Source: Terriglobia bacterium
GTDB taxonomy: Bacteria; Acidobacteriota; Terriglobia; Terriglobales; Acidobacteriaceae
Length of the DNA: 64,000 nucleotides
Assembly: GCA_020073565.1 (NCBI GenBank)
Contig: JAIQEY010000012.1
Location: 1 to 64,000, forward strand
Reading direction: 5' to 3'
Part shown: one piece after another, positions 13,379 through 56,038 of the stretch
How the letters are laid out: each line of letters starts with the position of its first letter
Numbering within the stretch: the stretch's first letter is position 1
The notes under the pieces: generated by a model
Seen by the model: only the letters and a program-made list of their open reading frames with translations
Databases searched by the model: none
What the model was told of the DNA's origin: nothing
Translations under genes and position numbers: made by a program

Positions 13379-13380
13379 TC

Positions 13381-36073: not shown

Positions 36074-36174
36074 GCGGAATCTGTCTATTTTAGCGCACTG
36101 GCGGCGGGTGGCATTGGTCGAGCCATTACCAGCGATAGTCTGATTACGTTGGTAAGGAAAAGCCAATTCCTATT

Positions 36175-39426: not shown

Positions 39427-40452
39427 TTACCCGGGATTCGACAAGGCCGAGCGTTGGGATTTTTCCTCGTACATGTTGCGGTCGGCTAGATCAAGGACCT
39501 CATCGAGCGTTTTGCCGTCGGTCCACTCCGCCGTGCCGATACTGAGGCTGACCGTGAAGTCATCCAGACTGCTCGACTGATTCCACTCATTGAGGAAAAC
39601 CTGAATCCGGTTTACTACGGTGTCGGCGCCGGCGGCGTTGGTATTTGACAGTGCGATCAGGAATTCGTCGCCTCCGTAGCGAATGGCAGCATCGGTACCT
39701 CGGATCGAGCCCTTGAGCAACGTGGCGATTTCGGTTAGGACAAAGTCTCCGGTCAGGTGGCCGAATTGAGTATTGACCTGTTTGAAATGGTCCAGGTCCA
39801 CCAGCAAAAATGTGAGTGGGTGGCCGAGGCGCTTTGCCTGCCCGATGAAGCGGCCAGCCAATTCCTCGAGCGAACGTCGATTGTAGATTTCCGTCAGCGG
39901 ATCGGTAAATGACTGGAGGCGAATCAGTTCGTTCTGCATCGCCGTCGAGATCATCCTCTGTCGTAACTGCCGGAACTCGATGCGGCGGGTTACGAGGTAG
40001 GTGTTGGCCAGGATCAACAGCACGAGCAGACCGCACGCCAGCTGTTTCGATACCGTGATCTCAAAATGCAGATCGCCGGACTTCATGAAGGCGGCGGGCA
40101 GCAGGACGGCCAGCAGCCCTAGTCCGACCAGGACCCCGGTGGCCGTGACAATCATCCACAACTCCCAGTCGCGCTTGTCCAGTTTTCTGAGTTCCCGGTT
40201 GACATTGGCCAGAACGCTGTCGGAATCATGGCCAGAGCGAAGAGAACTTGTTGCAGGCTGCTCGAAAGAACGAGTTCGTGGGTGAGGTTCGGAAACGGCT
40301 CGCAGGCTGGTCTCCAGCCTGCGCTTTTCCTGGAAGAGAGTTACGAATTCTTCAGCATGCCCGGCGCCAGGGGACACCGCGGACAGTTCTTCCAGGCGTT
40401 GGCTCAGTGTGCGAAGCCGGTGTTGCAGTTCAGGTTGTTGGCCTTCAGGCAT
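39427..40452 (-). CDS. Membrane GGDEF diguanylate cyclase
   Basis: A 341-residue diguanylate cyclase. A polar N-region of about 95 residues, likely coiled coil, precedes two transmembrane helices (about 98-122 and 137-156). The GGDEF domain starts near residue 180 (DPLTEIYNRRSLEEL), with the intact active site GGDEF at 260-264 and an allosteric I-site RGTD at 251-254. It should make c-di-GMP from GTP and be product-inhibited. Only a short loop separates the helices, so it has no periplasmic sensor domain. The PilZ protein at 7.6 kb is a possible effector. Confidence 0.92.
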   Translation of the reverse strand: MPEGQQPELQHRLRTLSQRLEELSAVSPGAGHAEEFVTLFQEKRRLETSLRAVSEPHPRTRSFEQPATSSLRSGHDSDSVLANVNRELRKLDKRDWELWMIVTATGVLVGLGLLAVLLPAAFMKSGDLHFEITVSKQLACGLLVLLILANTYLVTRRIEFRQLRQRMISTAMQNELIRLQSFTDPLTEIYNRRSLEELAGRFIGQAKRLGHPLTFLLVDLDHFKQVNTQFGHLTGDFVLTEIATLLKGSIRGTDAAIRYGGDEFLIALSNTNAAGADTVVNRIQVFLNEWNQSSSLDDFTVSLSIGTAEWTDGKTLDEVLDLADRNMYEEKSQRSALSNPG

Positions 40453-40855
40453 AGCCTAGTCGGCCCCGCGAAGACGCAGCCCCATCGCAGGAGTCTACCG
40501 TGGCACGATCGTCGCTGGAACGTTACGAGGGTAATGGGCTGCCCAGCCGTCGGACGCTGCGAGCTTTTGGGCAATTCCTGGGTGTGATCCTCATCACATG
40601 CACCTGTGATTAGGCATGCTGTCGCAGGTCTCCTTACCCGGTAACGTTCCGAGGGTGGAGATGGCGGTCCGCCCGAGAGTTTGGCGGGTCAAAATCCGCC
40701 AAGTGTGCGGGGAAAGCCCGGTATTCCCGGGTCGAGCCGGGGGAGGCACGACTGCAAGCTGTTGAAAATAGTGGGGATCACCATCGATTTCAAGAACGCA
40801 CCCTTGGCATTTCGTGTGCTTCAAGGAAGCGCGGAATGTAAGGAGAAAACGACGC
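40453..40855. other. Divergent intergenic region
   Basis: A 403-base gene-free gap between the diguanylate cyclase and the TPR genes. It contains the CRP/FNR-like site at 40,583, two copies of AACGTT-CGAGGGT (near 40,525 and 40,645) and GC-rich short dyads at 40,670-40,750 (TTGGCGGGTCAAAATCCGCCAA; CCCGGTATTCCCGGG). It may fold as a structured leader, but I match no riboswitch class. Confidence 0.45.
40583..40598. promoter_or_regulatory. CRP/FNR-type operator TGTGATCCTCATCACA
   Basis: A perfect palindrome with the exact CRP half-sites TGTGA and TCACA. The core TGTGATCCTCATCAC recurs unchanged at 52,841. It lies 258 bases before the first TPR gene and 131 bases before the diguanylate cyclase start. 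Confidence 0.6.
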
Positions 40856-41491
40856 ATGCCCGATGAAACAGCACCGTCCGGGTCAGTTTGGCAGGCGAGA
40901 CAGGTGTATGGGATGGCCGTTGTTTGCCTGCTGGTAGGCTTGGCCATCGGCTACCTTTTTCGGGGCTCGCAATCTTCCGTGCCACCTGTGCCGCAGGCGA
41001 GCGTCACTCGACCGGCCGCCATCGCAGGCGCGATGGGGCAGCTGCCCGGCCTCGAGCAGATGAAGCTGATGGCCGACAAGAAAGCCGAGCCTTTGCTTGC
41101 GAAGCTGAAGAGCGATCCGAACAACAGTGGCCTCCTGCTGCAGGTCGGGAACATTTACAAAGCCACGCACCAGTTCAAGGACGCGATCGGCTACTACGAC
41201 CGGGCGTTGAAAGCGGATTCGAAGAACATTCTGGCTCGCAACGAAATGGCGTCTTGCCTGTACTACACCGGAGACGTGGACGGTGCGCTGGCCCAGTTGG
41301 AGCAGTCGATCAAAGACGATCCCAAAAATGCGGACGCGCTGTTCAATCTCGGTGTGATCAAGTTCGATGCAAAGAAAGATGCCAAGGGAGCAGTCGCAGC
41401 ATGGCAGCAACTGCTGAAATCGAATCCTGAACTCGACTCGCACAAGAAGGCCGAGGTCCGGAAGGCGATTGCCGGCGCCAGCAAAGGCTGA
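40856..41491 (+). CDS. TM-anchored TPR protein, paralogue 1
   Basis: A 211-residue protein from the ATG at 40856 (AAGGAG twelve bases upstream). One N-terminal helix (VYGMAVVCLLVGLAIGYLF) is followed by RGSQSS, a Pro-rich linker, and three to four TPR units (LLLQVGNIYKATHQFKDAIG; ARNEMASCLYYTGDVDGALA; ALFNLGVIKFDAKKDAKGAV). The architecture is that of the CcmH/NrfG (CycH) C-terminal domain, which holds apocytochrome c for haem attachment. It is one of a tandem pair next to the cytochrome cluster, so a chaperone role there is plausible, by inference. Confidence 0.75.
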   Translation: MPDETAPSGSVWQARQVYGMAVVCLLVGLAIGYLFRGSQSSVPPVPQASVTRPAAIAGAMGQLPGLEQMKLMADKKAEPLLAKLKSDPNNSGLLLQVGNIYKATHQFKDAIGYYDRALKADSKNILARNEMASCLYYTGDVDGALAQLEQSIKDDPKNADALFNLGVIKFDAKKDAKGAVAAWQQLLKSNPELDSHKKAEVRKAIAGASKG

Positions 41492-41524
41492 CATAAGAAT
41501 TCGAGTTGGAGGGGTAGGACAGAC

Positions 41525-42205
41525 ATGTCTCAGAACGAAAATACATCTTCGACGCAACCATGGACCAGTGTCCAGGCTTACACTCTGGCCGTGCTCTGCC
41601 TGCTTTTGGGCATTGCCGGTGGCTGGTTGATCCGTGGGTCGCAAGCCCGAGGACCGGAGAGCGGGGTCTCAAATACCGCCGCCGCGGTGCCCGGAGGGGG
41701 CAGTTCAGGCGCGGAGGCCCAGCCAACCGCGGACCAGATGAAGAAGATGGCCGACACCCAGGCTGCTCCGCTGCTCGCGAAGTTGCCGGCGGATCCGAAC
41801 AATCCGGAACTGCTGGCCAACATCGCCAATATCTACTACGATACCCAGCAATATCCCACGGCGATTGACTTTTACCAGCGCTCGCTCAAGGTGCAGCCTT
41901 CGAACGTTGGCGTACGCACGGACATGGCAACTGCCTACTGGTATAGCGGCAACGCGGACGGCGCCATCGCGGAGTTCAACCAGGTCCTCTCCACTCAGCC
42001 CAGCAGTGCGAACGCGCTCTTCAATCTGGGAATCGTGAAGTGGCAGGGCAAGATGGATGTGGAGGGCGCGGTCGCGGTGTGGCAAAAGCTGCTGGACACG
42101 AATCCAACCTACGAAGGCAAGGAAAAAGTTCAGCAACTGATCGCCCAGGTCAGAAAGCACAAAGATTTGAAGCCAGGAACACCCGCCAAACCATTGGCGG
42201 AATGA
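41525..42205 (+). CDS. TM-anchored TPR protein, paralogue 2
   Basis: A 226-residue paralogue of the preceding gene, 33 bases downstream with its own GGAGGGG ribosome site. The helix AYTLAVLCLLLGIAGGWLI and the following RGSQA are shared, as are the TPR units (LLANIANIYYDTQQYPTAID; VRTDMATAYWYSGNADGAIA; ALFNLGIVKWQGKMDVEGAV). The two copies differ mostly in the linker and in the tail, so they are likely an old tandem duplication. The role is as for paralogue 1. Confidence 0.75.
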   Translation: MSQNENTSSTQPWTSVQAYTLAVLCLLLGIAGGWLIRGSQARGPESGVSNTAAAVPGGGSSGAEAQPTADQMKKMADTQAAPLLAKLPADPNNPELLANIANIYYDTQQYPTAIDFYQRSLKVQPSNVGVRTDMATAYWYSGNADGAIAEFNQVLSTQPSSANALFNLGIVKWQGKMDVEGAVAVWQKLLDTNPTYEGKEKVQQLIAQVRKHKDLKPGTPAKPLAE

Positions 42206-42697: not shown

Positions 42698-44575
42698 TCA
42701 TTTCTTCAGGACGCCGCCCACGTGGCCGAGCGCGACACTGCCACTCGAATCGTGCGCGGCGTTGTGGCAAGTCAGTGTGCAGGTGTTCGAGCCTCGGTTG
42801 TAGGAGACGGGAGAACCTCCATTCGGGCCAACCACCTTTGCGTCGAAGCTGATCAGCCGCTGCCCGGAGGAATTGGAACTGCTGCTTCCGACACCGTGCG
42901 CCGTGTGGCAGGCGGAGCAACTGAAACCAGCGTTGATATGCCGCCCGTGCTCGGCAAAGCTGGCGTTCTGGATGATGTTGGAGAGGTCGTGACACTTCCC
43001 GCACAGCGCATAAGGACCGTTCGCGCTGAGGTCGGGAGTCGGGAACAGGTTGGTGATCAATTGACCCGGCGCGGGAGCCTGGCTGAATTCATAGCGGCGT
43101 TCGAGGATGTGGTCCCACTTCGATCCATGGGGGCCGACGGGGCCGGCGCCTCCGAATTCGCGGTTGTCGTCGCTGTTGTGGCAATCGGTGCAGAAAATGC
43201 GAGTTCCCATCGGGCGGGTCTGAACCTCGCCGCGGATATCCCACATGGCCGTCAGCAGGCTGGGCTGCGAGATACCGGCAGCGTCCCGCATAACCGGATG
43301 AACCGAGATTGCCGTGGCGCCGAATTGCGCGATGAGGTTCAAGGGATCGCCCACAACCCCCGCGCGCGTTGGCAAGTATCCGTACTCCGGGAGAATCTGC
43401 TTGCCGGAGCTATTGCCGTGGCAGCGCAGGCAAGTTTCGAATTGCCTGGTGGCTGGCCCGGTGAGACTGGAACCGTCCGCGGCGACGCCGGTCGCTCCAT
43501 TCTGCGAAGGACGAATGTCGGGAGGGGAGCTAAATGCCATCACCTGATTGGAGGCATGGGGGTTGTGGCAATCGGCGCAGGTCGCGTGGCGATTCTCATT
43601 CAGAACGACGGGTTCCCCGGGGGTATGCGCATTGCTCCCGATCGCGAAGGGGTGGCCCTTCTTGGCGAATTCGGAGAAAACGTCCGGGACAGGCTGAAGG
43701 AGTGCATTGCTGCCGTTGTGGCAAACGATACAGCTCTGGCTCGTGTTGTCGATGTTCGGGACGGCAGGGACGGGGTTGTGCAGCAAGCCAACGCCGCCAG
43801 CGTTGTGCGAAGAGTGACAGGACAAACATGCGAACTCTGCCACGGTCGAGTATCCGCCCAGCCCTGAACTCGGGTTGACTACCGCGGGCGAGGTGGCGTG
43901 GATGCTGGTGGTCCACTGCGACAGAGGGTTGCTGATGGCGTTCACAATGCGCGGCGTGGTCTCGTGGCAGGAAAGACATAGACCGCCCTTGAGGTTGTCA
44001 CGCACCAGGAAGTTCGTCGACTTCTTATCAAGGGCCTGGTTATGTGGATTGTGACAACTGCTGCACTCGACGTTGCCCTGGATGAGCTTTACCGAATGGG
44101 TCGAATCGGCGGTTGTACCCGTCGCCGCGAGACTCTGCACCAGGTGCGCGGCATCCTTCAGTGGGAGTTTCATGCTGAACGGATGAGACGTCTCCAGGTG
44201 CGGGAGCAGCGCGTTGGTCATCGGCTGCGACATGGCGATGGGACCGTAAGGAACCATCTGGCCGGGCGCTACCGTTCCATCGTGACAGCTGAGGCAAAGC
44301 GAACTGGCATCGCCCAAAGTTGGTTGCACCGTTGTGTTCTGAAATGTGTCGCTGGAATATAGCTGCGTGTAGGTCTGAGTGGAGAATGTTTGGCTCCAGA
44401 GAGGCCCCTTGCTCACACCGGAGTGGGGCGCGTGGCAATACAGGCAGGCGGCGGACATGGCGCCCCGGACCGGGGAGGCTGTGGTTGAGAGATCATGCAC
44501 GCCCAGGATGTCTCCCGATTGTGCCGCAGCCCGGCACGCAAACCACAGGACCCATGCGAAAAGAATTCGTTTCAC
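42698..44575 (-). CDS. Multihaem cytochrome c, 12 haem sites
   Basis: A 625-residue exported cytochrome with signal (ILFAWVLWFACRAAAQ). I count eleven CxxCH motifs in order (CLYCH, CLSCH, CSSCH, CLSCH, CLSCH, CIVCH, CADCH, CLRCH, CTDCH, CGKCH, CSACH) and one CTLTCH (CX3CH) near the C-terminus. Many are followed by xPH or NPH, giving distal ligands, as in the doubled CxxCH family. It starts with a GTG that overlaps the stop of the upstream NHL gene by four bases. It is the last gene of the seven-gene cluster and may be the surface-exposed or periplasmic electron carrier. Confidence 0.88.
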   Translation of the reverse strand: MKRILFAWVLWFACRAAAQSGDILGVHDLSTTASPVRGAMSAACLYCHAPHSGVSKGPLWSQTFSTQTYTQLYSSDTFQNTTVQPTLGDASSLCLSCHDGTVAPGQMVPYGPIAMSQPMTNALLPHLETSHPFSMKLPLKDAAHLVQSLAATGTTADSTHSVKLIQGNVECSSCHNPHNQALDKKSTNFLVRDNLKGGLCLSCHETTPRIVNAISNPLSQWTTSIHATSPAVVNPSSGLGGYSTVAEFACLSCHSSHNAGGVGLLHNPVPAVPNIDNTSQSCIVCHNGSNALLQPVPDVFSEFAKKGHPFAIGSNAHTPGEPVVLNENRHATCADCHNPHASNQVMAFSSPPDIRPSQNGATGVAADGSSLTGPATRQFETCLRCHGNSSGKQILPEYGYLPTRAGVVGDPLNLIAQFGATAISVHPVMRDAAGISQPSLLTAMWDIRGEVQTRPMGTRIFCTDCHNSDDNREFGGAGPVGPHGSKWDHILERRYEFSQAPAPGQLITNLFPTPDLSANGPYALCGKCHDLSNIIQNASFAEHGRHINAGFSCSACHTAHGVGSSSSNSSGQRLISFDAKVVGPNGGSPVSYNRGSNTCTLTCHNAAHDSSGSVALGHVGGVLKK

Positions 44576-45675
44576 TGACCCGCTCCTCCCGCCTTGGTCC
44601 TCAGCCCGTGATATTGAAATACCTGCACCCGCCGGTTATAAGAATCCACCACGTACACGCGATCCTGATTGTCGATGAAGAGCCCGGCGGGCATCTGGAA
44701 TTCGCCCAGCCGCGTTCCACGGTGGCCGAAACTGTAGAGCAACTGTCCCTGGCGATCGAAGACCTGCACCACTCCCCAGAGCCCTTCGACCAGATAGATG
44801 TGGTCCTCCGAATCAATTGCGATACCCTTGGGGCGGAACACCTGGCCGCTGGAGTCACCCGGATTGCCAAGTGCGCCCAGGAAACGATCGGCAGCGTCAA
44901 ACATCTGGACGCGGAAGTTCATCGCATCCACCACCGCGAGAACGCCGTTCTTCACCCGCAGTTCGGTGGGGAAGTTGAATTCTCCGTCTCCGCTTCCGTG
45001 CTTCCCAATAGTTCGCAGCACCCGGCCCTGGGGATCCAGGACATAAACGCGGTCGCGTAGAGTGTCCGTCACATAAATGCGTTGCGTCCCGGAATCGATC
45101 GCAATGCCTGTAGGACGTTTGAAATAGCCTTCGCCGCCCTTCAGACTGCCCAGTGCGCCCTGGTACTTGCCGCTGGGTTCGAAGACAAATACTTTGCCGG
45201 ACTTGGAGTCCGTGACGTAGATGTTGTCCTGGGCATCTACGGCCACGCACTGTGGCTCGAGCATCGGGTCTTTGCCTGTTTCTTTTCGCTCGAGGAACTT
45301 GTACTTGTGTTGCTGGGCGTCGAAGATGTGGACTCCGCCCCGGCCTGGATCGCTGACGATCAAACGGCCCCGCGAGTCGACCGCGATACCGTAGGGGCGG
45401 ACCAACTGTTTGTAATCGGGCTCGCCTGCGATAACGTTGACCATCTTGCCCCAGAAGCCGGGTTTGGCGCGCGTATCGCGCTCCGAACTGAAGGTGCGCT
45501 CGAAGCTCAACTTGCGCCCGCCTTCGAGCAGAAGCTCGGGTGGAGATGGTTCGGCGCCGGCTCGCTGCCGCTTGCCCGCAGAGGCGGGCGCGATCATCAG
45601 AAGAATCAAACAACCGATCCCGGCTGCGCTACGCAGTTTTGAGGTGTGGGCGCGGCTCAAAATACATTGAACCAT
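44572..45675 (-). CDS. NHL-repeat six-bladed beta propeller
   Basis: A 367-residue exported protein with a signal (GIGCLILLMIAPASAG). Six NHL blades are seen, each with a phrase like GIAVDSRGRLIVSD and RDRVYVLD. The family gives a protein or ligand scaffold, not an enzyme here. It overlaps the outer-membrane barrel gene by 19 bases and the 12-haem cytochrome by four bases, so it is translationally coupled to both. In Geobacter, NHL proteins lie next to outer-surface cytochromes (from memory), and the same layout is seen twice in this cluster. Confidence 0.85.
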   Translation of the reverse strand: MVQCILSRAHTSKLRSAAGIGCLILLMIAPASAGKRQRAGAEPSPPELLLEGGRKLSFERTFSSERDTRAKPGFWGKMVNVIAGEPDYKQLVRPYGIAVDSRGRLIVSDPGRGGVHIFDAQQHKYKFLERKETGKDPMLEPQCVAVDAQDNIYVTDSKSGKVFVFEPSGKYQGALGSLKGGEGYFKRPTGIAIDSGTQRIYVTDTLRDRVYVLDPQGRVLRTIGKHGSGDGEFNFPTELRVKNGVLAVVDAMNFRVQMFDAADRFLGALGNPGDSSGQVFRPKGIAIDSEDHIYLVEGLWGVVQVFDRQGQLLYSFGHRGTRLGEFQMPAGLFIDNQDRVYVVDSYNRRVQVFQYHGLRTKAGGAGQ

Positions 45676-47501
45676 CTGGATATACCGAAGAAGTACGAAT
45701 TCGCCGTCGTGGGCGGAACGCCGGAGGCACTGATTCCCTGATGGATTCTGGTGAAACCCGCTCTCAGCACCACCTTGCGAAGATTGTAATCTAGACGGGA
45801 ATAGTAGCGCTCGGTTTCGTTGAACGAGGACCTCACACTGGAAATCGTGTCGCTGGTCGCATTCGTGTAGTTGATAGTCAGCGCCATCCTGCGCAATGGG
45901 GATGCACCCACACCGATACTGTAACTGCGGCCGTTGAACAGAACCAGTTCATCGCCCGTCACGCCCGGCAGGGGCGCCGGATTCAGGAAGCCGCTCGGGG
46001 TCAAGATGGTTTGGCCGTTTGACTTCGAATAATTGCCGGTTAGTGTGTACCTTTGCCACCCGAGGGTGCTGGAAACAAAGTTGGAATGGCTGGTCGAACT
46101 CTGGTCCTGCAACAAGCCGCTCTGCGCGGCGCGGTAGGAGCTGCTAAAGAAGGTGTTCGGACTAATCCGACGACGGATGCTGGTTCCGTAGTTGATGGAA
46201 TTCGTCGTGTAGGTCAAAACCAGAGTCTGCACATTCTGGGCGTAGGAGAAATCTGCCGAAGTTTCCCACCGGCCAAACTTGCGCTGCATGCCGACATTTC
46301 CAACAAAGCTCAGGCCAGTATTGCCGATTTCCTGGGCGTTGTCGACCATGCCAAAGCTGAAGTACAGAAGCCCGAACAACGGTCTGGAGTAGTTGTAGGA
46401 GACGGTGCCGCCGTACTGGGTGAGATCGAGGTTTCGGCCATTGAAATACTGCGATTGGTGGCTGACCCTTCCCCGTAACATGAAACCGCGCCCCAGGCTG
46501 TAGTTCGCAAAGGCACTGGTGCCGAAGGAATGTGACTCCCCTCCCCCGAGGATTACCACGGGTGTCCCTCCGCCATTCACCAGGCTCTGTTGCAGCGCGC
46601 CGGCCAGATTGTCAGTGTATCTGACTTCACCAAAGAGGTTCAGCCGGCTCGTCGGATTGATGCTGACCGTCGCATCGGAGGTATTGGTCGTTCCGTTGCT
46701 GCTGGCGAAACCGCTTCCATTGTCGAAGGTCGCGCGGTTGAAGGACGCCGAAAAGTTGCCCGAAAGAGGCAACCGGTGGGACGCGAGGATTCCATAAGTA
46801 TCAGAGGATGAAGAGGATTCCGTGGCTGAGTTATCGATGGCGATGAATGCGGGAGTATTCAAATCGAGACTCTGGTGGGTGAAAAAGCCAGCCAAATCGA
46901 AACCGACAACTCGGTAGGTGGAGTTTAGATTGAAGAGGCGAGTCGTCGAACGGATATCGCCCTCCGCGCCCAACACGGAAGAAGAGTTGCCAGATGATGT
47001 GTACGACGCCGACAGGGTGGGCAGGTCGGGAACCAGGGCGCTCCAGCCAATCGTGTAGGACTGGCCCGACCCTTGGGTGGTCAGTCCGGAGACGCCGGGA
47101 ATCCCGAACTCACCGCTGCTGTTGAAATTCTTGGAGTACGAGGCGAAGCCTGGAAAATGGCTTCCGCTGAAGATGTTCACGCTCGAGATCACGCCACTCT
47201 CGTCGAAGATGGATTGCGAGTCAGCGTTGTTCTGGTTGCGGTTGTAGAAGGGCTGAACGTTAAAGGACAGAAAACCGGGGTTGTAATACGAACCCGTCAG
47301 CGTCCCGTTGCCGTTTAGGTTGAGGCTGTGGCTGGACTGCCCGACGGTGCCGAAGCTGCCCCCATAGCCGAACCCGAGAGTTCCGTTCAGGTTCATCTTG
47401 AGGTCGTCTCCAACTTCGATTTGCGCGACCCCGGGCCGAACCCACGCCAGCAGCGCCAGCAGCAACCACCCGATTTTCAGAACCTTCGTCTGCCCATGCA
47501 T
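45657..47501 (-). CDS. Large outer-membrane beta-barrel, porin-like
   Basis: A 614-residue protein with a signal (IGWLLLALLAWVRPGVAQ). About 20-26 amphipathic strands follow, for example HSLNLNGNGTLTGSYY, GRGFMLRGRVSHQSQYF, GGTVSYNYSRPLFGLLYFSF and RYYSRLDYNLRKVVLRAGF. It ends in Phe (WFNVF), the BAM recognition signal. Size and strand number are close to MtrB/PioB and Geobacter Pcc porins, which hold a multihaem cytochrome inside the outer membrane. No sequence-level motif proves this, and there is no N-terminal CxxC as in MtrB. Its place between PPIase, NHL and cytochrome genes supports a conduit role. Confidence 0.75.
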   Translation of the reverse strand: MHGQTKVLKIGWLLLALLAWVRPGVAQIEVGDDLKMNLNGTLGFGYGGSFGTVGQSSHSLNLNGNGTLTGSYYNPGFLSFNVQPFYNRNQNNADSQSIFDESGVISSVNIFSGSHFPGFASYSKNFNSSGEFGIPGVSGLTTQGSGQSYTIGWSALVPDLPTLSASYTSSGNSSSVLGAEGDIRSTTRLFNLNSTYRVVGFDLAGFFTHQSLDLNTPAFIAIDNSATESSSSSDTYGILASHRLPLSGNFSASFNRATFDNGSGFASSNGTTNTSDATVSINPTSRLNLFGEVRYTDNLAGALQQSLVNGGGTPVVILGGGESHSFGTSAFANYSLGRGFMLRGRVSHQSQYFNGRNLDLTQYGGTVSYNYSRPLFGLLYFSFGMVDNAQEIGNTGLSFVGNVGMQRKFGRWETSADFSYAQNVQTLVLTYTTNSINYGTSIRRRISPNTFFSSSYRAAQSGLLQDQSSTSHSNFVSSTLGWQRYTLTGNYSKSNGQTILTPSGFLNPAPLPGVTGDELVLFNGRSYSIGVGASPLRRMALTINYTNATSDTISSVRSSFNETERYYSRLDYNLRKVVLRAGFTRIHQGISASGVPPTTANSYFFGISRWFNVF

Positions 47502-47515
47502 CGTACACGTCCTAC

Positions 47516-48550
47516 TTACAGCGTCTCAATCTTGGCGTCCTTGCGCAGCTTCTGCCCGAGACTGGACCGCAGCCGTTCGATTTTCTCTTTCTGCAAGTCC
47601 GATTGCACCTGACTCTTCACCTCGGCGAACGGAACTATCCCGGCCGATGTGTGGGCTTCGAGGCGGACCAGCGTGTAAGCCTGTCCCATCTGGATCAATT
47701 CGCTGACCTGCCCAGGCTTTATCCCCAACGCAGCCTTCACGATCTCCGGGGGCAGTTGGTCGCGCCCGCAGGGCTTGTGGTCGCCCATGTTGACGTGGAA
47801 GTCGTCATCGGAAAGCTTTTCCGCAAGCAGTCCGAATTCCGTGTAGGTCTTCGCCGTCCTGGCCTGCTGGGCTGCCTCTTCCGCGCGGCGGCGCGCTTCT
47901 TGCAGGATGTCTGCGCTGGCATTCGCCGGCGGCAGGATGGAGATGCTCTGGATGTGGAACTGTTCTTCCCGTTCGAACTTGGCAGGATTCTGGTCGTAGA
48001 AAGCTTTGGCCTGAGCCAGCGTCACCCTGGACTTGTCTACGACTTCCGCGGTCAACAGGGCCTCAATCAGGACGGAGCGACGAATCTTCTCGCGCAGTAC
48101 CTGGTGCGAACCGTTCAGTTCCACTTTGATGAACTGCTCATACGTTTCCTGGTTGGGAAACTGCTCGCGGAATTGTCGTTCCGCGCGCGCCATGCGTTCC
48201 GGTGGAACGGTCATCGCGCGGCGCTTCGCTTCCTGATAAACCAATTCCTCGAAGATAATCATCTGGAGAGCGCCCTTGCGGATCTGCGGCTCCAGTCCCT
48301 GGGGGAAACCGTTGTGCTGTTTTGCATAAGGAAAAATGGCGAACATTTCACGCAATAAATCTCGGTCAGTCAGAGCAGCGCCATTGACCCGAGCCACGAT
48401 TTTGCCGGTCACTTGCAGCGTGGTCATCTTCGCGGGAGGCATCGCGTTGGTCGCGGGCATCCCCTCGATCGGGGCGTGGGAGGCCACTTGAGCATTCGCA
48501 ACCATGGCTCCCAGCAAGACCATCGTCGCGGCGCAGAATCGAAATTTCAT
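47516..48550 (-). CDS. Exported SurA/PpiC-type peptidyl-prolyl isomerase
   Basis: A 344-residue periplasmic folding factor starting at the ATG 48550 (GGAAG nearby), with signal (RFCAATMVLLGAMVANAQ). An N-terminal SurA-like helical domain (VTGKIVARVNGAALTDRDLL, then LREMFAIFPYAKQ) precedes the parvulin domain (FHIQSISILPPANASADILQ; PPEIVKAALGIKPGQVSELI; AYTLVRLEAH). It would chaperone outer-membrane barrel or cytochrome folding. The gene is 14 bases upstream of the barrel gene and in the same operon, which suggests it serves that barrel. Confidence 0.85.
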   Translation of the reverse strand: MKFRFCAATMVLLGAMVANAQVASHAPIEGMPATNAMPPAKMTTLQVTGKIVARVNGAALTDRDLLREMFAIFPYAKQHNGFPQGLEPQIRKGALQMIIFEELVYQEAKRRAMTVPPERMARAERQFREQFPNQETYEQFIKVELNGSHQVLREKIRRSVLIEALLTAEVVDKSRVTLAQAKAFYDQNPAKFEREEQFHIQSISILPPANASADILQEARRRAEEAAQQARTAKTYTEFGLLAEKLSDDDFHVNMGDHKPCGRDQLPPEIVKAALGIKPGQVSELIQMGQAYTLVRLEAHTSAGIVPFAEVKSQVQSDLQKEKIERLRSSLGQKLRKDAKIETL

Positions 48551-48618
48551 AACTTCCTCACGAACCCTGTTGCGAAAGCGAGGGGGAGGAGATTCCCTCC
48601 CCCATATGAAAGAGCCCA

Positions 48619-49650
48619 TTAGAACTTCGTGGTGATGCTCATAATTCCGCTGCCTTCGTTCGCTCCGCCGGCGCCCGTGAAGTGGCACTGACGGCAGAAC
48701 TGAGTCGCGGAGGAAGACTGACTGGGGCTTGGCGTTGCACCCGGATTGTAGGGAGCAGCTAGGAAGAAATAGCTTGGGTAAGTACCCTTGACTCCACCCG
48801 CGGTGCCGCTGAACGTGTACATGGTGTGCGGAGTGTGGCACGTGGTGCAAACCAAGTACGCATCAGCAGGGTTGGTGGTGGGCAACACCAGCGGGTTCGC
48901 ACGGCCGCCCGCAGGATTGGCGGTATTCGCCATCGTTACGTTGAACGAACCGTAGTGACTAATGAATGCCGCGTAGTTTGAGTCCGCAGGGTTGGGCAAG
49001 ATGCAGTCAACCGCTACGCCGCCAGATGTACAACCACCCACCGAATAGATGACTCTGGCAACCGGGGGCGTTGCAGTTGCATTGACGAGACCCAGCGCGC
49101 CCAGATTGGCTAGCGGACCAATTGGATGGTCGTTCTGGTAGTTGCCATTGGCCGTGCCATCCGCACCGAGCAGAGTCGGAATCGGATTCGGGCCGTAGCC
49201 AGCCGGGAGCAGGCCCATTTGCTTCTCCCAGGACTGGTTGGTCATCATGGCGCCTTTGGCGATGTTGCCATCATGGCAGCTCAGGCACATCATGACGCCC
49301 GTGGTTAAGCTTTCGTTGGCCACGGAACTAGCGGGCAGGGTGAGGCCGAACTTGCTGTCGTCACCGAAGCCCAGGGTTTGGTTGTAGAGCGGTCCCAGGT
49401 CCTCGCCCCACAGGGCAAAGTTGCCCGTGTCGGGATCCGTTACTGGTCCGCCGCCGGTTGCAGCGTTGCCACCATTGCCCCGAGCGCCGCTGTGCGGAGC
49501 GTGACAACCGACGCAACCGCGGCCCCCGTTCTGGTGAGCGCCTAGTTTGTCTACGCCCGTGATACCCGTTGCCCCGCCCGTGTAAGTCTGGGCCATTGCG
49601 AGGCTGGCGAATACCAGGATGCAGAGTGCGATGAAGAGAGTCTTTTTCAC
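48619..49650 (-). CDS. Tetrahaem cytochrome c
   Basis: A 343-residue exported protein with signal (LFIALCILVFASLAMAQ). Four CxxCH motifs are seen: CVGCHAPHSG, CLSCHDGN, CTTCHTPH and CRQCHFTG, with distal His in the following PH. Haem density is low for its length; long Gly/Asn-rich stretches separate the sites. The opening CVGCHAPHSG is close to CLYCHAPHSG of the 12-haem protein, so the two share a module. The GTG start overlaps the stop of the upstream NHL gene by four bases. Confidence 0.85.
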   Translation of the reverse strand: MKKTLFIALCILVFASLAMAQTYTGGATGITGVDKLGAHQNGGRGCVGCHAPHSGARGNGGNAATGGGPVTDPDTGNFALWGEDLGPLYNQTLGFGDDSKFGLTLPASSVANESLTTGVMMCLSCHDGNIAKGAMMTNQSWEKQMGLLPAGYGPNPIPTLLGADGTANGNYQNDHPIGPLANLGALGLVNATATPPVARVIYSVGGCTSGGVAVDCILPNPADSNYAAFISHYGSFNVTMANTANPAGGRANPLVLPTTNPADAYLVCTTCHTPHTMYTFSGTAGGVKGTYPSYFFLAAPYNPGATPSPSQSSSATQFCRQCHFTGAGGANEGSGIMSITTKF

Positions 49651-51026
49651 TTTAGTATTCCTCCTGATGTATTACTGCTCACTGCTCGGGGGTCTGTTTC
49701 TCCCCTTCGTTTCGGCTGTAAAAGCTCAGCCAAACTGGTTGCGACCTCGTATTCCGCCGAGGTCCTGGCAGCCGCTTCCTTACCGGAAACGGCCGGCGAA
49801 AGTTGCTGTGAACTCGAAGGCGCGGATTTGCCCGCGCCTTTCTTCTGCTCTTCGCCTTTCCTGCGATCTCGTTCGGCCAGGGCTTCTTCGTCCGTCACGT
49901 AACGGAACATCTGCACTCGGCCGGCATACTGTTCTGAGGTGAAGATTCGGTTGTTCTTATCGATCGTCAGACCGGCGAGAGCATTGAACTGGCCGGGAAG
50001 GCTTCCATGCCCGCCCATCCAGATGAGCAACTCTCCCTCGGGAGTAAACACCTGCACCCGGTCCTGCACGCCGTCGGCGACCCAGACGTGGCCATCTTTG
50101 TCGACCGCGATTCCTTTCGGCCGGGCGAAGTAGCCTGGGCCATCACCCGCTTTTCCGAAGGTCCGAATGAAATTGCCGTCGGCATCGAAGCTCTCGACCC
50201 GATCGTTGAACGTGTCCGAGACATACAGATTTCCGTCTTTGTCGACCGCCACATTGGTCGGCTTGGCAAAGTCCCCGGGCGTGGTCAGCGCATGGGCCTT
50301 GCCCGCGGTGCCAAGCTTGCGCAAGAGCTTGTGGGGAGGATCAGCGTCATAGACCAGCACCTGGTCAAGCTCTGGGTCGGCCACGTAGAGAAAGCGGTTT
50401 TCGTTGTCAATAGCTAAGCCCGCTGGACTAGCCATGCCTTCGCTGATGCTGCTTTCGACGCGATGCTGTGGATCAAAAACCAGTACGTGCCTCATTTCGC
50501 TATCGGAAACGAACAGGCGATCGCTGTCGTCGATAACCAAGCCCGTAATCAAGGCGAAGCGGGCATGCATGCCATTCTTAATGAGCTCGAGATCCTTGGT
50601 TTCGGTATTGAAGATGAAGACGGCATGGACCTTGGTGTCAGCCACATAAAGGCGATTCTTGGAATCCACTCCCAGGCCGTAGGGCGTCACCAACTGGAAC
50701 AAGCGCCGGTCGCTCTGGGCGGTTTCGCCAACCGCCACGCCCGCCAGCCGGTCCATCCATTTGGCCTTCTTCTCTTGCGCATCAGGGGGCTTTTGCGCAC
50801 AGAAGTAATTCAGGTAACGGATCCGCGTGATGGCCGGCGGATTGGGCCAGACAATCCTGGAAAGAAATAATGGATCCGTGATGATGGGCTTTGGCTTCTC
50901 AGCGGCCGCCTGCTTCTTCTTCTTCTCACCGTAGGCGGAAGTCGTCAGAAGAACGAGGATCATGCCCAGGGCCAGGGCTACAACTCCCGCCCGGTGCTGG
51001 ATCGAATTTTTGTTAGTCCTAAACAT
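49647..51026 (-). CDS. NHL-repeat propeller with extended tail
   Basis: A 459-residue exported protein from the ATG at 51026 (GGGAGA upstream). After the signal (VVALALGMILVLLTTSAYG) and a Lys-rich stretch, residues of about 100-380 form six NHL blades (YGLGVDSKNRLYVADTKVHA; AGLAIDNENRFLYVADPELD; KGIAVDKDGHVWVADGVQDR). The last 80 residues are charged and disordered (ALAERDRRKGEEQKKGAGKS). It starts 17 bases after the 16-haem cytochrome gene and overlaps the tetrahaem gene, so it is part of the same transcript. Confidence 0.85.
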   Translation of the reverse strand: MFRTNKNSIQHRAGVVALALGMILVLLTTSAYGEKKKKQAAAEKPKPIITDPLFLSRIVWPNPPAITRIRYLNYFCAQKPPDAQEKKAKWMDRLAGVAVGETAQSDRRLFQLVTPYGLGVDSKNRLYVADTKVHAVFIFNTETKDLELIKNGMHARFALITGLVIDDSDRLFVSDSEMRHVLVFDPQHRVESSISEGMASPAGLAIDNENRFLYVADPELDQVLVYDADPPHKLLRKLGTAGKAHALTTPGDFAKPTNVAVDKDGNLYVSDTFNDRVESFDADGNFIRTFGKAGDGPGYFARPKGIAVDKDGHVWVADGVQDRVQVFTPEGELLIWMGGHGSLPGQFNALAGLTIDKNNRIFTSEQYAGRVQMFRYVTDEEALAERDRRKGEEQKKGAGKSAPSSSQQLSPAVSGKEAAARTSAEYEVATSLAELLQPKRRGETDPRAVSSNTSGGILK

Positions 51027-51043
51027 CTCTATCTCCCGTGGTT

Positions 51044-52600
51044 CTACCGGGTGAAGCTTTTGTGGCATGTGTCGCAAAATGCCGTGTTATTCGCCTGGTC
51101 TTTCACGAGCAGATCCGGCTTTGCGGAAGCGTGGGGCTGATGGCAAGTGGAGCAATTAATGGCTACCCGAACCTTGGTGTTGTCGGTCGGATCCATCTGA
51201 TCGACCACCGGGTGACGATCCACCGGGTGACCTAGTCCGTATTTGATCGGTAAACGCGGAACCTTCGCGAAGTAATTTTCCGGCAGCTTTACCTGTCCGC
51301 CGAAAATCGTGACCAGGTGTTCCGCCGCTATCAGAGTCGGCTTGGCGTCGGGGCCGTGGCATTCAAGGCAGAGTGCGTTCCGATTGCTGGCGCGGAGGAG
51401 ATGGTCGTTATCTCCACCATGCGCCTCGTGGCAGACCGCGCAGCCCTGTCCGAACGCGGGCTGGTGGTGGACCGCCTTCTTCTCTTGTTCGGCCTGTTCG
51501 GTATGGCAACCCAGGCAAATGTTGACCGGGTCGGTCTTCGGCAGCCCGGGGCTCTTGCTGGCATGCGGGCTGTGGCAATCCGTGCAATCGCCGGCGGCGC
51601 CGGGGTGCTGCACTTTGGCGGTCTCGATCAACTTTGCCTTGTCGCCGTGGCAGGTGACGCAGAGCGCCTTGACATCGGACTGGGTCAGGACAACTTTTCC
51701 GTCCTTAGCAGGCGCGTGGCAGAGTTCACAGTTCTTGTCGGCGAAGGGCGGATGCACGAACTTCGCCATCAGCTTAGGCGCCGCCGACTGATGCGGATCG
51801 TGGCAGCTCAAGCAATTTGCCGTGCCGAACGGCTGATTGTGGTGCACCTTCTGCAGAGCGTCATCTTTCGGGTCGTGACAATCCACGCACAGCGCCGGGG
51901 CCGACTTGGTCAGGTGAAACTGATTTTCGGGAGTCAGATCCGCGCCCGTCTTGTGTGTGGTGTGGCAGGTATCGCAACCCAGATCGAGGGCGGCGTGGCG
52001 GCTGCCTTTGTCAGGAACGTTCGTGCCTTGCGTGTGGCAGGTGAGGCAGAGATTATCTTTCTTGTCGCCGGAGGTCGCCTTCAGCAACTGATTCTTGTTG
52101 GCCGAGGTGTGCGGATCATGGCAGGTCAGGCAATCGCGAACGGCCGGCTGGTGAACGTGCCCTTTGATCTGCGTGGCGTCCTTCTCGCCGTGGCAGGTGA
52201 GGCAGAGCCTGTACGGGGTAGCCGTGATCAGCATGACCCGGGTGGTGTCTTTGTTGACCCGGACCTGGTGGCAGCTTAGACAGCCGGTTGCGATCGCAGA
52301 GTGGACGGCCGTGCCCTTGGTCTTGTCTGCGTGACACTCGAGGCACTGGGCGCTGTCAATCTTCGGATCGAGCGGAACCGGGTGAATCTTACTGAAAGCC
52401 CGTGGCATACCGGCAGCAGCCAGGCTCAGGACCATCACGATGCGCAGGATCAGGCCGGTGAGCGAGGGGCTCCAGGAACGCCCAAGGTTCTTGCTCTGGC
52501 TCACGAACTGGGAAAGGCTGCTCACCCAACTCTCCTGCAAGGGAGGGTGCACGAAGGTCGCCGCCCGGGGGCTTGTTGTGAAGATTTTCATCACCTTCAT
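51044..52600 (-). CDS. Multihaem cytochrome c, 16 haem sites
   Basis: About 518 residues with sixteen CxxCH motifs: CLECH, CLSCH, CLTCH three times, CDTCH, CVDCH, CLSCH, CELCH, CVTCH, CTDCH, CLGCH, CAVCH, CLECH, CSTCH, CDTCH. Spacing is about 25-35 residues, denser than in the 12-haem protein. An N-terminal region of 45 residues precedes a hydrophobic helix (ILRIVMVLSLAAAGMPRAFS), so it is either a signal anchor or a long-n-region signal. Starts at 52600 or 52591 are equally possible. It is the first gene of the cluster and lies 241 bases below a CRP/FNR-like site. Confidence 0.88.
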   Translation of the reverse strand: MKVMKIFTTSPRAATFVHPPLQESWVSSLSQFVSQSKNLGRSWSPSLTGLILRIVMVLSLAAAGMPRAFSKIHPVPLDPKIDSAQCLECHADKTKGTAVHSAIATGCLSCHQVRVNKDTTRVMLITATPYRLCLTCHGEKDATQIKGHVHQPAVRDCLTCHDPHTSANKNQLLKATSGDKKDNLCLTCHTQGTNVPDKGSRHAALDLGCDTCHTTHKTGADLTPENQFHLTKSAPALCVDCHDPKDDALQKVHHNQPFGTANCLSCHDPHQSAAPKLMAKFVHPPFADKNCELCHAPAKDGKVVLTQSDVKALCVTCHGDKAKLIETAKVQHPGAAGDCTDCHSPHASKSPGLPKTDPVNICLGCHTEQAEQEKKAVHHQPAFGQGCAVCHEAHGGDNDHLLRASNRNALCLECHGPDAKPTLIAAEHLVTIFGGQVKLPENYFAKVPRLPIKYGLGHPVDRHPVVDQMDPTDNTKVRVAINCSTCHQPHASAKPDLLVKDQANNTAFCDTCHKSFTR

Positions 52601-52972: not shown

Positions 52973-53149
52973 CAGGGTCTGGTGATGGGTGAAATCTCGG
53001 AAGGCCGGAACGGAGGTGCGTGATATAGCCCAAGAACGGTCGTGGTCGGCAGTTTTGAGAATCTCATAACTAGCATGAATTGAGTTGTTTAGCGGCCTGC
53101 CCCCTTCTGGCGCAGAACGTGCATTTTGAAAAGGCTACGGGGGAGGGAT

Positions 53150-54601
53150 ATGGCCATGATCGTCCGCACAAGCGCCCGCAAGGTATGGCAAACCGCCGCC
53201 TCGATTAAGACGGGCGTAGTACTTCTTATTCTGGTCGTGATTTTTTCCGCGGTCGGCACGATCGTCCTGCAACGCCCGAACACCGAACCCGACGAGATGC
53301 TGAGCGCTTATCCCCCCCAGGCTCTCCGCATTCTCGATCTGACCGGCCTGACGGACGTGTTTCACGCATGGTGGTTCCTGGCGCTCATGATTCTGGTGAG
53401 CTGCAGCATTCTCGCCGCTTCCATCGAGCGGTTCCCCCATGCGTGGCGTTACTTCTCGCGCCCGTACAAGTATCCCGACGAGAGTTACCGGCGCGTGCTC
53501 CATCCACAGAAATCGCTGACGATCACGGATGAAGAGACGGGGCTGGTCGCGGCCGAGCGCGCACTGCACTCCCTGGGATTCAGACCCGAGCGGGTGGTGC
53601 GCGAAGACCACTTTGGAATTTTTGCAGAGCGGAACCGGATCTCTGAGATGGGCGTATACATCGTGCACGCCAGCCTCCTGCTGATTTTCTTCGGCGCCGT
53701 TGTCGATGGCGTCTGGGGATGGCGGGGAACGCTCAACCTGAATGAAGGGGACAGCTCCAGCGCCGTCGAATTACACGATGGCAAAACCAGAACTTTGCCG
53801 TTTGCCATCCGCTGCGACCAGGCCGGGCAGGAAAACTATAAGGACGGGAGCCCGAAGAAGTGGTGGTCAAAGCTGGCCGTGGTCAAGGATCAGAGAGACG
53901 TTGAGAAAAAGGAAATCGTGGTGAACGATCCGCTGGTTTATAGCGGCGTGCGCTTTTACCAATCCAGCTACGGGCCCAACGGCAAGGTGGAGAAATTCTC
54001 AATCGCTGCCACTCCGAGCAGCGGGTCCGGTGAGAAGCGGGACATCTCGCTGACCGTGAACGAAACAGTTTTACTGGATGCCGATACCACGGTACGCTTC
54101 GCAGAGTTCATTCCTGACTATGCGTTGCGCGACGGGCAAGTTTACCGGCGTTCCAACGAATTGGGCAATCCCGCAGCGCATCTGGTGGTGAGTTCGAAGG
54201 CGACTGGTAAGAACTTTGACGTGTGGTTCCCGCCGATGGATGAGATCGCAGACAACTCGAAGGCCCCCTACCAGCTCCAGCCGACCGATCTCCAGATGGG
54301 CCACTTCACGGGCCTGCAGGTCTCTCACGAGCCGGGCCAGTGGGCGGTGTGGACGGGCGTCGTGCTGCTGGGGGTCGGACTGGCCTTTGTGTTTTATGTG
54401 GTGCACATGCGGTTCTGGGCAGTACCGGTCCGCGACGGGAAGACAGGCCAGTACACGCTTTGGATCGGCGGCAGCGCCAACCGCAACCGGGACGCGTTTG
54501 GCCAGCGGTTCAATGACCTGGTTGCCTTGCTGGAAGAAGAACTCAGAACTATTCCTAAGACCTCTCCGAGCGAGCAGGTCACAACCGTCGCCGGGCACTA
54601 G
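53150..54601 (+). CDS. Cytochrome c biogenesis protein ResB (CcsB)
   Basis: A 483-residue System II cytochrome c maturation protein starting at the ATG 53150 with GGGAGGG upstream; a TTG at 53126 is less likely. The first helices (SIKTGVVLLILVVIFSAVGT; HAWWFLALMILVSCSILAAS; MGVYIVHASLLLIFFGAVVD) and the last (WTGVVLLGVGLAFVFYVVHM) frame a large periplasmic domain. With CcsA it moves haem across the inner membrane and attaches it to CxxCH sites. It is divergent from, and adjacent to, the multihaem cytochrome cluster. Confidence 0.9.
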   Translation: MAMIVRTSARKVWQTAASIKTGVVLLILVVIFSAVGTIVLQRPNTEPDEMLSAYPPQALRILDLTGLTDVFHAWWFLALMILVSCSILAASIERFPHAWRYFSRPYKYPDESYRRVLHPQKSLTITDEETGLVAAERALHSLGFRPERVVREDHFGIFAERNRISEMGVYIVHASLLLIFFGAVVDGVWGWRGTLNLNEGDSSSAVELHDGKTRTLPFAIRCDQAGQENYKDGSPKKWWSKLAVVKDQRDVEKKEIVVNDPLVYSGVRFYQSSYGPNGKVEKFSIAATPSSGSGEKRDISLTVNETVLLDADTTVRFAEFIPDYALRDGQVYRRSNELGNPAAHLVVSSKATGKNFDVWFPPMDEIADNSKAPYQLQPTDLQMGHFTGLQVSHEPGQWAVWTGVVLLGVGLAFVFYVVHMRFWAVPVRDGKTGQYTLWIGGSANRNRDAFGQRFNDLVALLEEELRTIPKTSPSEQVTTVAGH

Positions 54602-54637
54602 GCCCGGGCGATTCGAGGATCGAAAGAGGATCGAAAT

Positions 54638-56038
54638 ATGGCGCGAGTCAAAGCAGAACAGCAGCAACCGGCCACCGGCATAACCCTGATCGTGCTGGTC
54701 GGATTGGCAATTGCATTTCTGCTGTTCATGGCATTTCTGAACGTGGTCAAGAGTGGCAATCTGGTGAGCGAAACCAACCTGCTTTTTGCCACGCTGATTT
54801 TTTACAGCGGCGCCGCGGCGCTGTACCTGGGCTTTGGCGTCACAGGCATCGCGTCGTATGTGAAGTTCGCCTCGCTGGCGACCTGGCTGGGCCTGATCGC
54901 GAACACGGCAGCCGTGGCGCATCGCTGGTATGAAGCGGGCCATCCTCCGTTCGCCAGTGTTTACGAAATGCTGCTGAGCTTCGTCTGGACGCTGGCCGCG
55001 CTCACCCTGGTGGCCGAAAGGAAATATGGCGTGAAGGTCATCGGCACGGTCACGATGCCGGTGGCGATTGTGGGCGTCGTGCTGATGCAGCTGCTGCGAA
55101 CGGAAGTGCATCCGCTGGTTCCAGCGCTGCAATCGACCTGGCTGCACGTGCATGTCACGCTCGCCATGCTGGCCTATGCGGCGTGTGCGCTCAGCTTTGC
55201 TCTGGCCATGATGTTCCTGATCCAGGACAACTTGAAAACCGAGACCTTCCTCGCGGTGACCAGTGCCAGCACGCTTACCATCTACGCAAGCATCGTCTTA
55301 ACGCGCTTCGAAAAGTGGGGCGGGCTGAACCTGGCGGCGTGGAACCCGGAACAAAAATCGGAGATCCTTCTCTCCAAGGGCGTGCGGCTGTTCGTCACCA
55401 TTCCCGATCTCGGGTGGCTGATGACGCTGACGCTTTTGGTGGTCGCGTCACCGCTGGTGTTCTACGGGCTTGCGCGCTGGAAGAGCAACGATTTCTTGAC
55501 GCTCGCCAATCGCGCGGTGTTCCTCAGCATTCTCCTGCAGGTGATGGCGCTGGTCATGTTTGTTGTACGCGCCGGGGATGGGCTCTATCCATCGCTCGAC
55601 GCGGAGGGGACGTTCCAAACCCGCCTGGCCGCCAGCCCATTCATCCTCTCGGGTCTCGTGGGTGGAGTATTCATCTCCTTGCTTTACCTCCTGCTGCTGT
55701 GGCGGCGTCCGGATCTGGAGCGCTTGCTGCCCAGTTCGGACAATCTCGACCGGATCACTTACAAAACGATCTGTCTCGCCTTTCCTTTGCTGACTCTGAT
55801 GATCGCCGCCGGAGCGTACTGGGCGAACCAGACTTGGGGCTCGTATTGGAGCTGGGATCCGAAAGAGACCTGGGCCGCGATCACCTGGCTGGTGTATGCG
55901 GGCTATCTTCACATGCGTGTCACTCGCGGGTGGCGAGGGCGCCGCGCCGCCTATTTTGCCATCCTGGGATTCGCAGTGGTCATGTTCACGTTTTTCGGAG
56001 TCACCTATTTGCTGCCAGGACTGCATGCCTATGCCTGA
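54638..56038 (+). CDS. ccsA: Cytochrome c biogenesis protein CcsA
   Basis: A 466-residue polytopic haem-handling protein, 36 bases after ResB and in the same operon. It has about eight helices ([78 protein letters not shown]). The haem-presenting WWD motif is clear as [20 protein letters not shown]. With ResB it forms the CcsBA cytochrome c synthetase. Its stop overlaps the next gene's likely start. Confidence 0.93.

Follow-up and report, generated by a model that had tools for sequence, protein, structure and literature searches.

The undecahaem electron transfer (Uet) complex has been described in Ca. Tenderia electrophaga, the Tenderiales and some Gallionella (PMC10734462), and the Tenderia undecahaem cytochrome is mentioned elsewhere too (PMC5371394). 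Porin-cytochrome clusters have been reported around undecahaem cytochromes and in Acidobacteriota genomes (PMC13264449), with two such clusters in Holophaga, also one of the Acidobacteria (PMC7399161). In Desulfovibrio and Geoalkalibacter, genes for NHL proteins neighbour multihaem or OmcE-like ones (PMC9769857, PMC12016550), genes for a peptidyl-prolyl isomerase (PPIase) and beta-propellers lie beside large cytochromes in sulphate reducers (PMC12246660), and the OmcE filament, with ligation of haem between its subunits, has been described (PMC9473688). Passages of four further papers (PMC12954529, PMC12545173, PMC1829397, PMC5566968) do not decide the question. Here we report on an operon of seven minus-strand genes, G1 to G7, at 42698-52600 of a stretch of 64,000 nucleotides (the window) from a Terriglobia bacterium of the Acidobacteriota (GCA_020073565.1, contig JAIQEY010000012.1, positions 1 to 64,000). 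The genes encode, in order, a 16-haem cytochrome, an NHL propeller, a tetrahaem cytochrome, a PPIase, an outer-membrane barrel, a second NHL propeller and a 12-haem cytochrome. By what means cytochrome filaments outside the cell attach to its envelope and receive their electrons is to our knowledge an open question. We consider it probable that the operon specifies an MtrAB-like outer-membrane conduit and an OmcE-type cytochrome filament that prolongs it beyond the cell, with G7 as the likeliest joint. What is supported directly is the gene content of the operon, its conservation, the kinship of its domains, the predicted fold of its barrel and the pattern of its haem ligands.

By its sequence, G7 is a full-length OmcE-like tetrahaem domain, the head, fused to an eight-haem body. 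A G7 profile of 13 rows (A2) matched the Protein Data Bank (PDB) entry 7tfs, which we take to be OmcE of Geobacter, with E 1.2e-23, residues 10-231 of the 232 in 7tfs aligning with profile positions 8-211. Residues 1-211 of the window protein alone found 7tfs at E 2.2e-11 (its residues 19-231) and 9yuq at 1.8e-10 in phmmer, the next match following at 0.11, and residues 1-204 matched the G3 gene of a related locus, L061 (tblastn, E 2.8e-10, 26%). An alignment of 60 rows (A5) combined the window protein with sequences from 59 of the 79 usable loci of G7, and its rows represent many phyla. The histidines that are invariant in it (60/60) number exactly 24, which is two per haem; eight of them lie in the head and 16 in the body. 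The eleven CxxCH motifs of G7 are joined by a CX3CH site (C599-C603-H604) that is invariant in the same 60 sequences, and for this reason the twelve haems first counted for the protein are correct; counts that consider only CxxCH would miss the twelfth and call such proteins undecahaem. At 55 loci with both proteins the eight histidine columns of the head are kept in 54 or 55 of the 55 heads, and the same columns are kept in all 55 tetrahaem cytochromes, but in 50/55 and 54/55 at two of them. Similarity between heads and tetrahaems amounts to 0.362-0.373, against 0.376 among the tetrahaems themselves (36 loci with canonical tetrahaems). In the AlphaFold2 model of G7 the means of 10-residue blocks of the body are mostly 70-96, with dips to 53-67 and 44 in the last block.

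Four conserved histidines of G7 are spare, in that they lie beyond the set of 24: H226 and H543 (59/60 each) and H317 and H330 (57/60 each). The ligand sets of the head and of the body are each complete, and H226, which lies between the two, is a candidate stand-in for a neighbour's ligand. A more specific proposal, which we put forward as possible though doubtful, is that G7 acts as a nanowire plug, its filament-subunit head being fused to a body that would dock on the MtrAB-like conduit, with H226 replacing the ligand of the neighbour. If this were true, the fused G7 would be a general way of attaching a nanowire to the outer membrane. The survey of the literature found no statement of an OmcE-like domain within a large cytochrome in the portions of the papers covered, the likeliest papers lying outside the survey, and the novelty of this domain is unproven. 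Homologues of G7 with a broken frame or with one stop inside the match occur at L065 5566-7378 and at G063:C141, G211:C81, G242:C41 and G389:C1, and these are possibly pseudogenes or assembly errors.

G3 most likely belongs to the OmcE nanowire family. Its alignment (A1, 14 of the 24 available four-haem rows) has exactly eight invariant histidines, four in CxxCH motifs and four others (H39, H53, H175, H275), so that four c-type haem sites are accompanied by four further conserved histidines in the pattern of OmcE. The two leading PDB matches of the G3 profile, ahead of other multihaem chains, are 9yuq, a 'Putative multiheme cytochrome c' of 16 chains (E 7.1e-10), and 7tfs (E 0.014). A shorter tetrahaem with the same eight histidines sits in related clusters of other phyla, and a profile of 16 distant tetrahaems of this kind, chosen by hand (A3), found 7tfs at 7.5e-47, 9yuq at 2.7e-42 and OmcS at 8.1e-8; A1 and A3 align with each other in hhalign with a probability of 99.1 (112 columns). 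Kinship with OmcE is thus found both by profiles and by way of A3, and family and ligand pattern together suggest that G3 may polymerise. Of the cytochromes in the block G3 has diverged most, and L049, L107 and L110 carry it in more than one copy; this divergence and duplication fit the high mutation rates that have been reported for surface cytochromes (PMC12977616). The extra tetrahaem copies, which include those of L049 at 4695-6859 and 16753-17727, stand in tandem or some distance apart, and the copy at 16753 in L049 has lost the histidine after its first CxxCH. At L047 the contig breaks off at either end (1-573 and 8724-9278) inside a tetrahaem gene, the two genes being similar and in inverted orientation, a sign either that the cluster is flanked by an inverted pair of copies or that the assembly broke at a repeat. 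In the genome of the window itself, the G3 of the operon is the only full-length match of the A1 type.

The conduit part of the operon is represented by G5 and G1. AlphaFold2 modelled the barrel from 44 aligned sequences (A4: the window protein and 43 barrel hits of an iterated hidden Markov model, HMM) with a predicted local distance difference test score (pLDDT) of 83.4, a predicted template modelling score (pTM) of 0.77 and 28 strands of at least nine residues. Its top PDB match in Foldseek is 6r2q_B, from the Mtr complex (E 1e-10, template modelling (TM) score 0.51/0.49, root mean square deviation (rmsd) 12.3), followed by Cir (E 9.1e-8, TM 0.38); chain B of 6r2q is presumably MtrB, with 26 strands. 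The iterated HMM ties the barrel family to barrels in the clusters of other phyla, most of which have an aromatic last residue. A sequence profile of the barrel found no PDB chain up to E 10, and a Pfam scan of the 44 barrels gave scattered weak matches only. G1 matches the DmsE family with E 1.6e-51 and 175.3 bits, below the cut-off of 192.2, and the best PDB match of its profile (A6, 10 rows) is 6r2q_A at E 1.1e-19, the sole other chain below 0.001 standing at 5.1e-5. The chain table names 6r2q_A 'Cystathionine beta-synthase' and the fold library names 6r2q the Mtr complex; we assume that chain A is MtrA. Because both proteins match chains of 6r2q, G1 and G5 look like an enlarged MtrA-MtrB pair. 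A small porin is rejected on the strength of the 28 predicted strands, and so the closed small porin that the original prediction had named as the outcome that would speak against it did not appear. The outer-membrane conduit of that prediction stands to the extent that there is a large barrel and that this barrel and G1 are both closest to the Mtr complex. The OmcE-type nanowire domains in G3 and in the head of G7 had been missed, and with them the model shifts from a closed conduit to a conduit and a filament.

That G1 and G5 are related to the Mtr complex would equally be expected of a plain porin-cytochrome conduit without a filament, in which G1, G5 and G7 would span the membrane, with G3 as a lone cytochrome on the surface in the manner of UetA, which is described as an extracellular tetrahaem (PMC10734462). 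OmcE kinship is no proof of polymerisation, and G3 is longer than OmcE (343 residues) and much diverged. We nevertheless find this reading somewhat unlikely: the eight haem-ligand histidines are kept throughout the 14 aligned rows, some genomes carry extra G3 copies, and the solved relatives are OmcE, which is a filament (PMC9473688), and the 16-chain entry 9yuq. A second alternative is that the barrel is mainly an export pore for the filament subunit, with the PPIase and the NHL proteins as secretion factors, and that electrons reach the filament in another way. An eight-gene block has been linked to the maturation and secretion of the OmcS nanowire (PMC12977616), and here too a PPIase and two NHL proteins accompany a barrel; against this, the best fold match of the barrel is that of the Mtr complex and an MtrA-like gene lies near the barrel at 19 of 26 related loci, so that a role confined largely to export seems to us quite improbable.

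The seven-gene block is conserved and is more than a chance association. The original prediction had listed the seven minus-strand genes in this order, among them a 614-residue barrel ending in Phe, packed with overlaps or gaps of at most 68 bases; a reading of open reading frames (ORFs) with preferred starts recovered all of this, the intervals from G1 to G7 being 17, -4, 68, 14, -19 and -4 bases. Barrel homologues (E up to 0.001) occur in 25 of 61 genomes, the window's own included: in 20 of the 24 genomes of its genus (itself counted), in 5 of 13 other members of the family and in 0 of 24 beyond it. Around these barrels 26 stretches were fetched from 24 relatives, and all 26 contain further genes of the cluster, cytochromes included. 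The gene-order search that had been proposed for Acidobacteriota relatives found the complete block of seven in the same order at 17 of the 26 loci (L058 included, where the contig ends within G7). Among the nine incomplete loci, seven are cut by contig ends, one (L057) is rearranged, and the remaining one is L041, where G3 to G7 are kept at 11854-19001 and no G1 or G2 lies within the fetched stretch. Where the MtrA-like 16-haem gene was not found near the barrel, six loci are cut by contig ends and L041 is without it. In L061 and L062 tblastn located G6, overlapped by a longer reading of the G7 frame. The haem counts of 16, 4 and 12 are constant in copies uncut by contig ends, save for G3 of L063 and L064 and G7 of L065, which have masked bases or a broken frame.

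A wider sample was obtained with the G7 profile, which found at least 564 relatives in named genomes; the best 80 form the second locus set, drawn from Acidobacteriota, Verrucomicrobiota, Planctomycetota, Nitrospirae, families of the Bacteroidota, Deltaproteobacteria and Gammaproteobacteria among others. Of these loci, 53 extend 8 kb or more upstream of the G7 homologue. Near G7, 50 of the 53 have a tetrahaem, 52 have NHL proteins (50 of them two or more), 42 have an HMM-recognised barrel and 23 a PPIase close to G4; tetrahaem, barrel and NHL protein occur together in 40. The HMMs used in this tally for tetrahaems and barrels drew in part on these same loci; a regular expression for the eight histidines, which uses no HMM, again found the tetrahaem in 50/53. 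Loci of Acidobacteriota, Planctomycetota, Verrucomicrobiota, Bacteroidota and Nitrospirota have the fused G7 with a tetrahaem, NHL proteins and a recognised barrel nearby, and at the gammaproteobacterial loci L162 and L171 an ORF of 669 residues, unrecognised by the HMM, takes the place of the barrel near G7. Within the phylum, 31 of 396 sampled genomes, own included, carry relatives of G7 (E up to 1e-20). Conserved linkage in relatives and related blocks across phyla rule out a chance neighbourhood of the seven genes. An ordinary periplasmic respiratory cytochrome cluster that happens to lie beside an unrelated barrel, a reading that might draw on the lack of a Pfam family for the barrel, is most improbable given that cytochromes accompany the barrel at 26/26 loci and that related barrels sit in the related clusters of other phyla; barrel homologues away from cytochromes, which the original prediction had thought would weaken it, did not turn up.

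Genes that might supply the conduit with electrons lie elsewhere in the genome. Contig C115 (L066 4851-11727) of the same assembly carries a gene for a seven-haem NapC/NirT protein beside one for a 13-haem protein with a cytochrome b561 domain, together with a 19-haem cytochrome, a b561-like protein just below the cut-off and an adjoining cNMP-binding protein, an arrangement that presumably resembles ImcH and CbcL of Geobacter. The contamination estimate for this genome is 6.02%, and homologues of the C115 proteins (94%, 89%) sit together in a relative, G010. Homologues of the NapC/NirT and b561 proteins (E up to 1e-40) occur in 25/25 and 24/25 barrel-positive genomes and in 13/36 barrel-negative ones in each case (Fisher p 7e-8 and 1e-6, uncorrected for shared ancestry); within the family the figures are 25/25 against 6/12 (p 4e-4) and 24/25 against 5/12 (p 5e-4), with shared ancestry again uncorrected. 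In five relatives (G002, G007, G017, G020, G028) one or both are on the contig of the cluster. These co-occurring multihaem proteins bear on the direction of electron flow, for the same anatomy could serve the uptake of electrons from Fe(II), minerals or partners, and the closest parts list, that of Uet, comes from a cathode oxidiser and from Fe(II) oxidisers (PMC10734462). The multihaem NapC/NirT and b561 proteins resemble quinol-oxidising cytochromes such as ImcH and CbcL, and we regard operation in the reverse direction as unlikely.

Taken together, the observations are consistent with an outward route in which electrons would pass from the quinol pool by way of inner-membrane cytochromes to G1. 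This protein would gather periplasmic electrons and, to judge from its kinship with the Mtr complex, reach into the barrel G5, in which the electrons may cross the membrane to the body of G7 and pass on through its OmcE-like head to a stack of G3 subunits. Family membership and ligand pattern suggest that G3, once exported, would stack into a wire of the OmcE type, on which the head of G7 would be stacked while its body rests on the conduit. G4 may help to fold the loop-rich cytochromes or the barrel, and the two NHL propellers may act as scaffolds or guides. We infer all of this, the direction of electron flow included, from two anchors, the resemblance of G1 and G5 to the Mtr complex and the kinship of G3 and the G7 head with OmcE.

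Several points weigh against a conduit that is continued by a filament. The heads of G7 are no nearer to the tetrahaem of their own locus than to those of others (0.373 v 0.362; 0.275 v 0.274), and as own and foreign similarity are alike there is no pair-specific co-evolution of the two. The head is poorly predicted by AlphaFold2, most of residues 18-132 falling under 50, and a Foldseek search with the G7 model gave no fold match in the PDB (best E 4.1). For G3, the profile matches OmcE only weakly (E 0.014), a PDB search with the single sequence returned no cytochrome at E values up to 10, the hhalign alignment of A1 with A3 spans just residues 29-183 of 343, and two of the ten G3-type rows left out of A1, which are paralogues, are without the histidine after the first CxxCH. 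The match of G5 to the Mtr barrel is modest (TM 0.51, rmsd 12.3). Shared ancestry is left out of account in the co-occurrence test, and identity is only about 42% (NapC/NirT) or 45-49% (b561) for many of the supply homologues. Cytochrome filaments as conduits, and the need for them in electron transfer, are themselves disputed (PMC11077965; PMC13194489).

A conduit continued by a filament remains the reading that we prefer, and it gives G7 particular interest. One-third filament subunit and two-thirds larger cytochrome, and usually encoded near an MtrB-like barrel, it is a concrete candidate for the joint, and it supplies point mutants with which a filament joint can be tested. With the operon, an Acidobacteriota lineage known from records of peat, palsa and soil also gains a likely system for extracellular electron transfer. 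The features of the locus are collected in Table 1.

Table 1. Features of the operon and its flanks, in window coordinates.
Feature	Coordinates	Strand	Description
G1	51044..52600	-	MtrA/DmsE-like 16-haem cytochrome (16 CxxCH), probable periplasmic wire; 518 aa from ATG at 52600, frame open to 52855
G2	49647..51026	-	NHL beta-propeller; Pfam NHL E 1.9e-27; position kept in relatives
G3	48619..49650	-	Tetrahaem cytochrome, 4 CxxCH, 343 aa; proposed OmcE-family filament subunit
G4	47516..48550	-	SurA/parvulin-type PPIase; Pfam Rotamase_2 E 6.5e-17, SurA_N_3 E 2.2e-7
G5	45657..47501	-	Outer-membrane beta-barrel, 614 aa, C-terminal Phe, 28 predicted strands, MtrB-like
G6	44572..45675	-	Second NHL beta-propeller; Pfam NHL E 8.3e-29
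G7	42698..44575	-	12-haem cytochrome: 11 CxxCH and one CX3CH
G7 head, residues 1-211	43943..44575	-	OmcE-like tetrahaem domain
G7 body, residues 212-625	42701..43942	-	Eight-haem domain: 8 haem sites and 8 further invariant distal His
H226 of G7	43898..43900	-	Spare conserved His between head and body; candidate substitute ligand
ResB and CcsA	53126..56038	+	Cytochrome c maturation (System II), divergent from the operon
Two TPR proteins, CcmH/CycH-like	40814..42205	+	Hydrophobic N-terminal stretch; convergent with the operon end

The start of G4 was preferred because GAGGAAG lies upstream of it and the N-terminus that it gives is signal-like. Pfam matched the cytochrome genes to the paired-CXXCH and cytochrome c7/c3 families and also gave NHL and rotamase (parvulin/SurA-like) matches; NCBIfam and Pfam together back the cytochromes, the NHL proteins and the PPIase, and scans of the window proteins with both found no family for G5. 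A search against PHROGs gave a single match, that of the PPIase to a family of unknown function. Promoter-like sites numbered 6 against 2.8 expected, none clearly at the start of the operon, and terminator-like sites 19 against 11.2 expected, none clearly at its end. ResB (Pfam E 2.3e-83) has homologues at 13/27 loci of a first set and 8/80 of the second, and CcsA (Cytochrom_C_asm, E 5.6e-46) at 11/27 and 4/80. The two TPR proteins reach 41.2 and 31.6 bits with TPR_CcmH_CycH, below its 42-bit cut-off, and are matched by Pfam TPR models; their homologues occur at 10/27 and 15/80 loci. Downstream of the cluster are genes for a sigma-54 response regulator and a GGDEF protein (window 34604-36166 and 39427-40452), and at 18417-21845 an ORF of 1142 residues with FG-GAP repeats and Ig-like ASPM/Hydin-type domains probably encodes a surface protein.

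Among known systems, MtrCAB and MtoAB share with the operon the fold of the barrel, which is of the large MtrB type (28 strands; 6r2q_B, E 1e-10, TM 0.51), and a G1 that is closest to chain A of the same complex. MtrA has 10 haems. G1 is related to this decahaem DmsE-family protein but has 16 haems and scores 175.3 against 192.2 bits; NHL proteins, a PPIase and OmcE-type cytochromes are added, and no protein of the MtrC/OmcA family was found among the cytochromes, G7 giving no match up to E 0.1 and G1 and G3 scoring 31.5 and 16.2 bits against a cut-off of 209.3. Membership of MtrCAB is rejected on these two grounds, the 16-haem G1 under the DmsE cut-off and the missing OmcA/MtrC family protein. 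The original prediction, too, had the set depart from MtrCAB in gene content. Profile searches of the PDB with G1, G3, G5 and G7 returned no chain named OmbB, OmaB or OmcB, the Geobacter Pcc sequences lying outside this comparison.

The OmcE nanowire shares with G3 the same four proximal and four distal histidines, and the family link runs through A3 and the G7 head; G3, as a candidate filament subunit, differs in being longer and much diverged. By description, GSU2500-2493 of Geobacter, concerned with the maturation and secretion of OmcS, is likewise a block beside a nanowire cytochrome (PMC12977616). The multihaem operon of SEEP-SRB and its relatives is described as combining genes for large multihaem cytochromes with PPIase and beta-propeller genes, and it differs in that its cytochromes have 26 and 16 or 12 haems (PMC12246660). 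The closest parts list is that of Uet, which has a tetrahaem (UetA), a PPIase (UetB), a barrel (UetC), two NHL proteins (UetHI) and the undecahaem UetJ (PMC10734462). The operon, matched to it by description only, has a tetrahaem, a PPIase, a barrel, NHL proteins and in G7 a large cytochrome that also has 11 CxxCH motifs. It differs from Uet in the twelfth, CX3CH haem site of G7 and in that the three-haem UetDEG are not among its seven genes, a 16-haem MtrA/DmsE-like protein being present instead; three-haem ORFs do lie near the cluster in a Woeseiaceae locus (L171). So closely does the parts list match that of Uet that the operon belongs to a kind of system that is already known.

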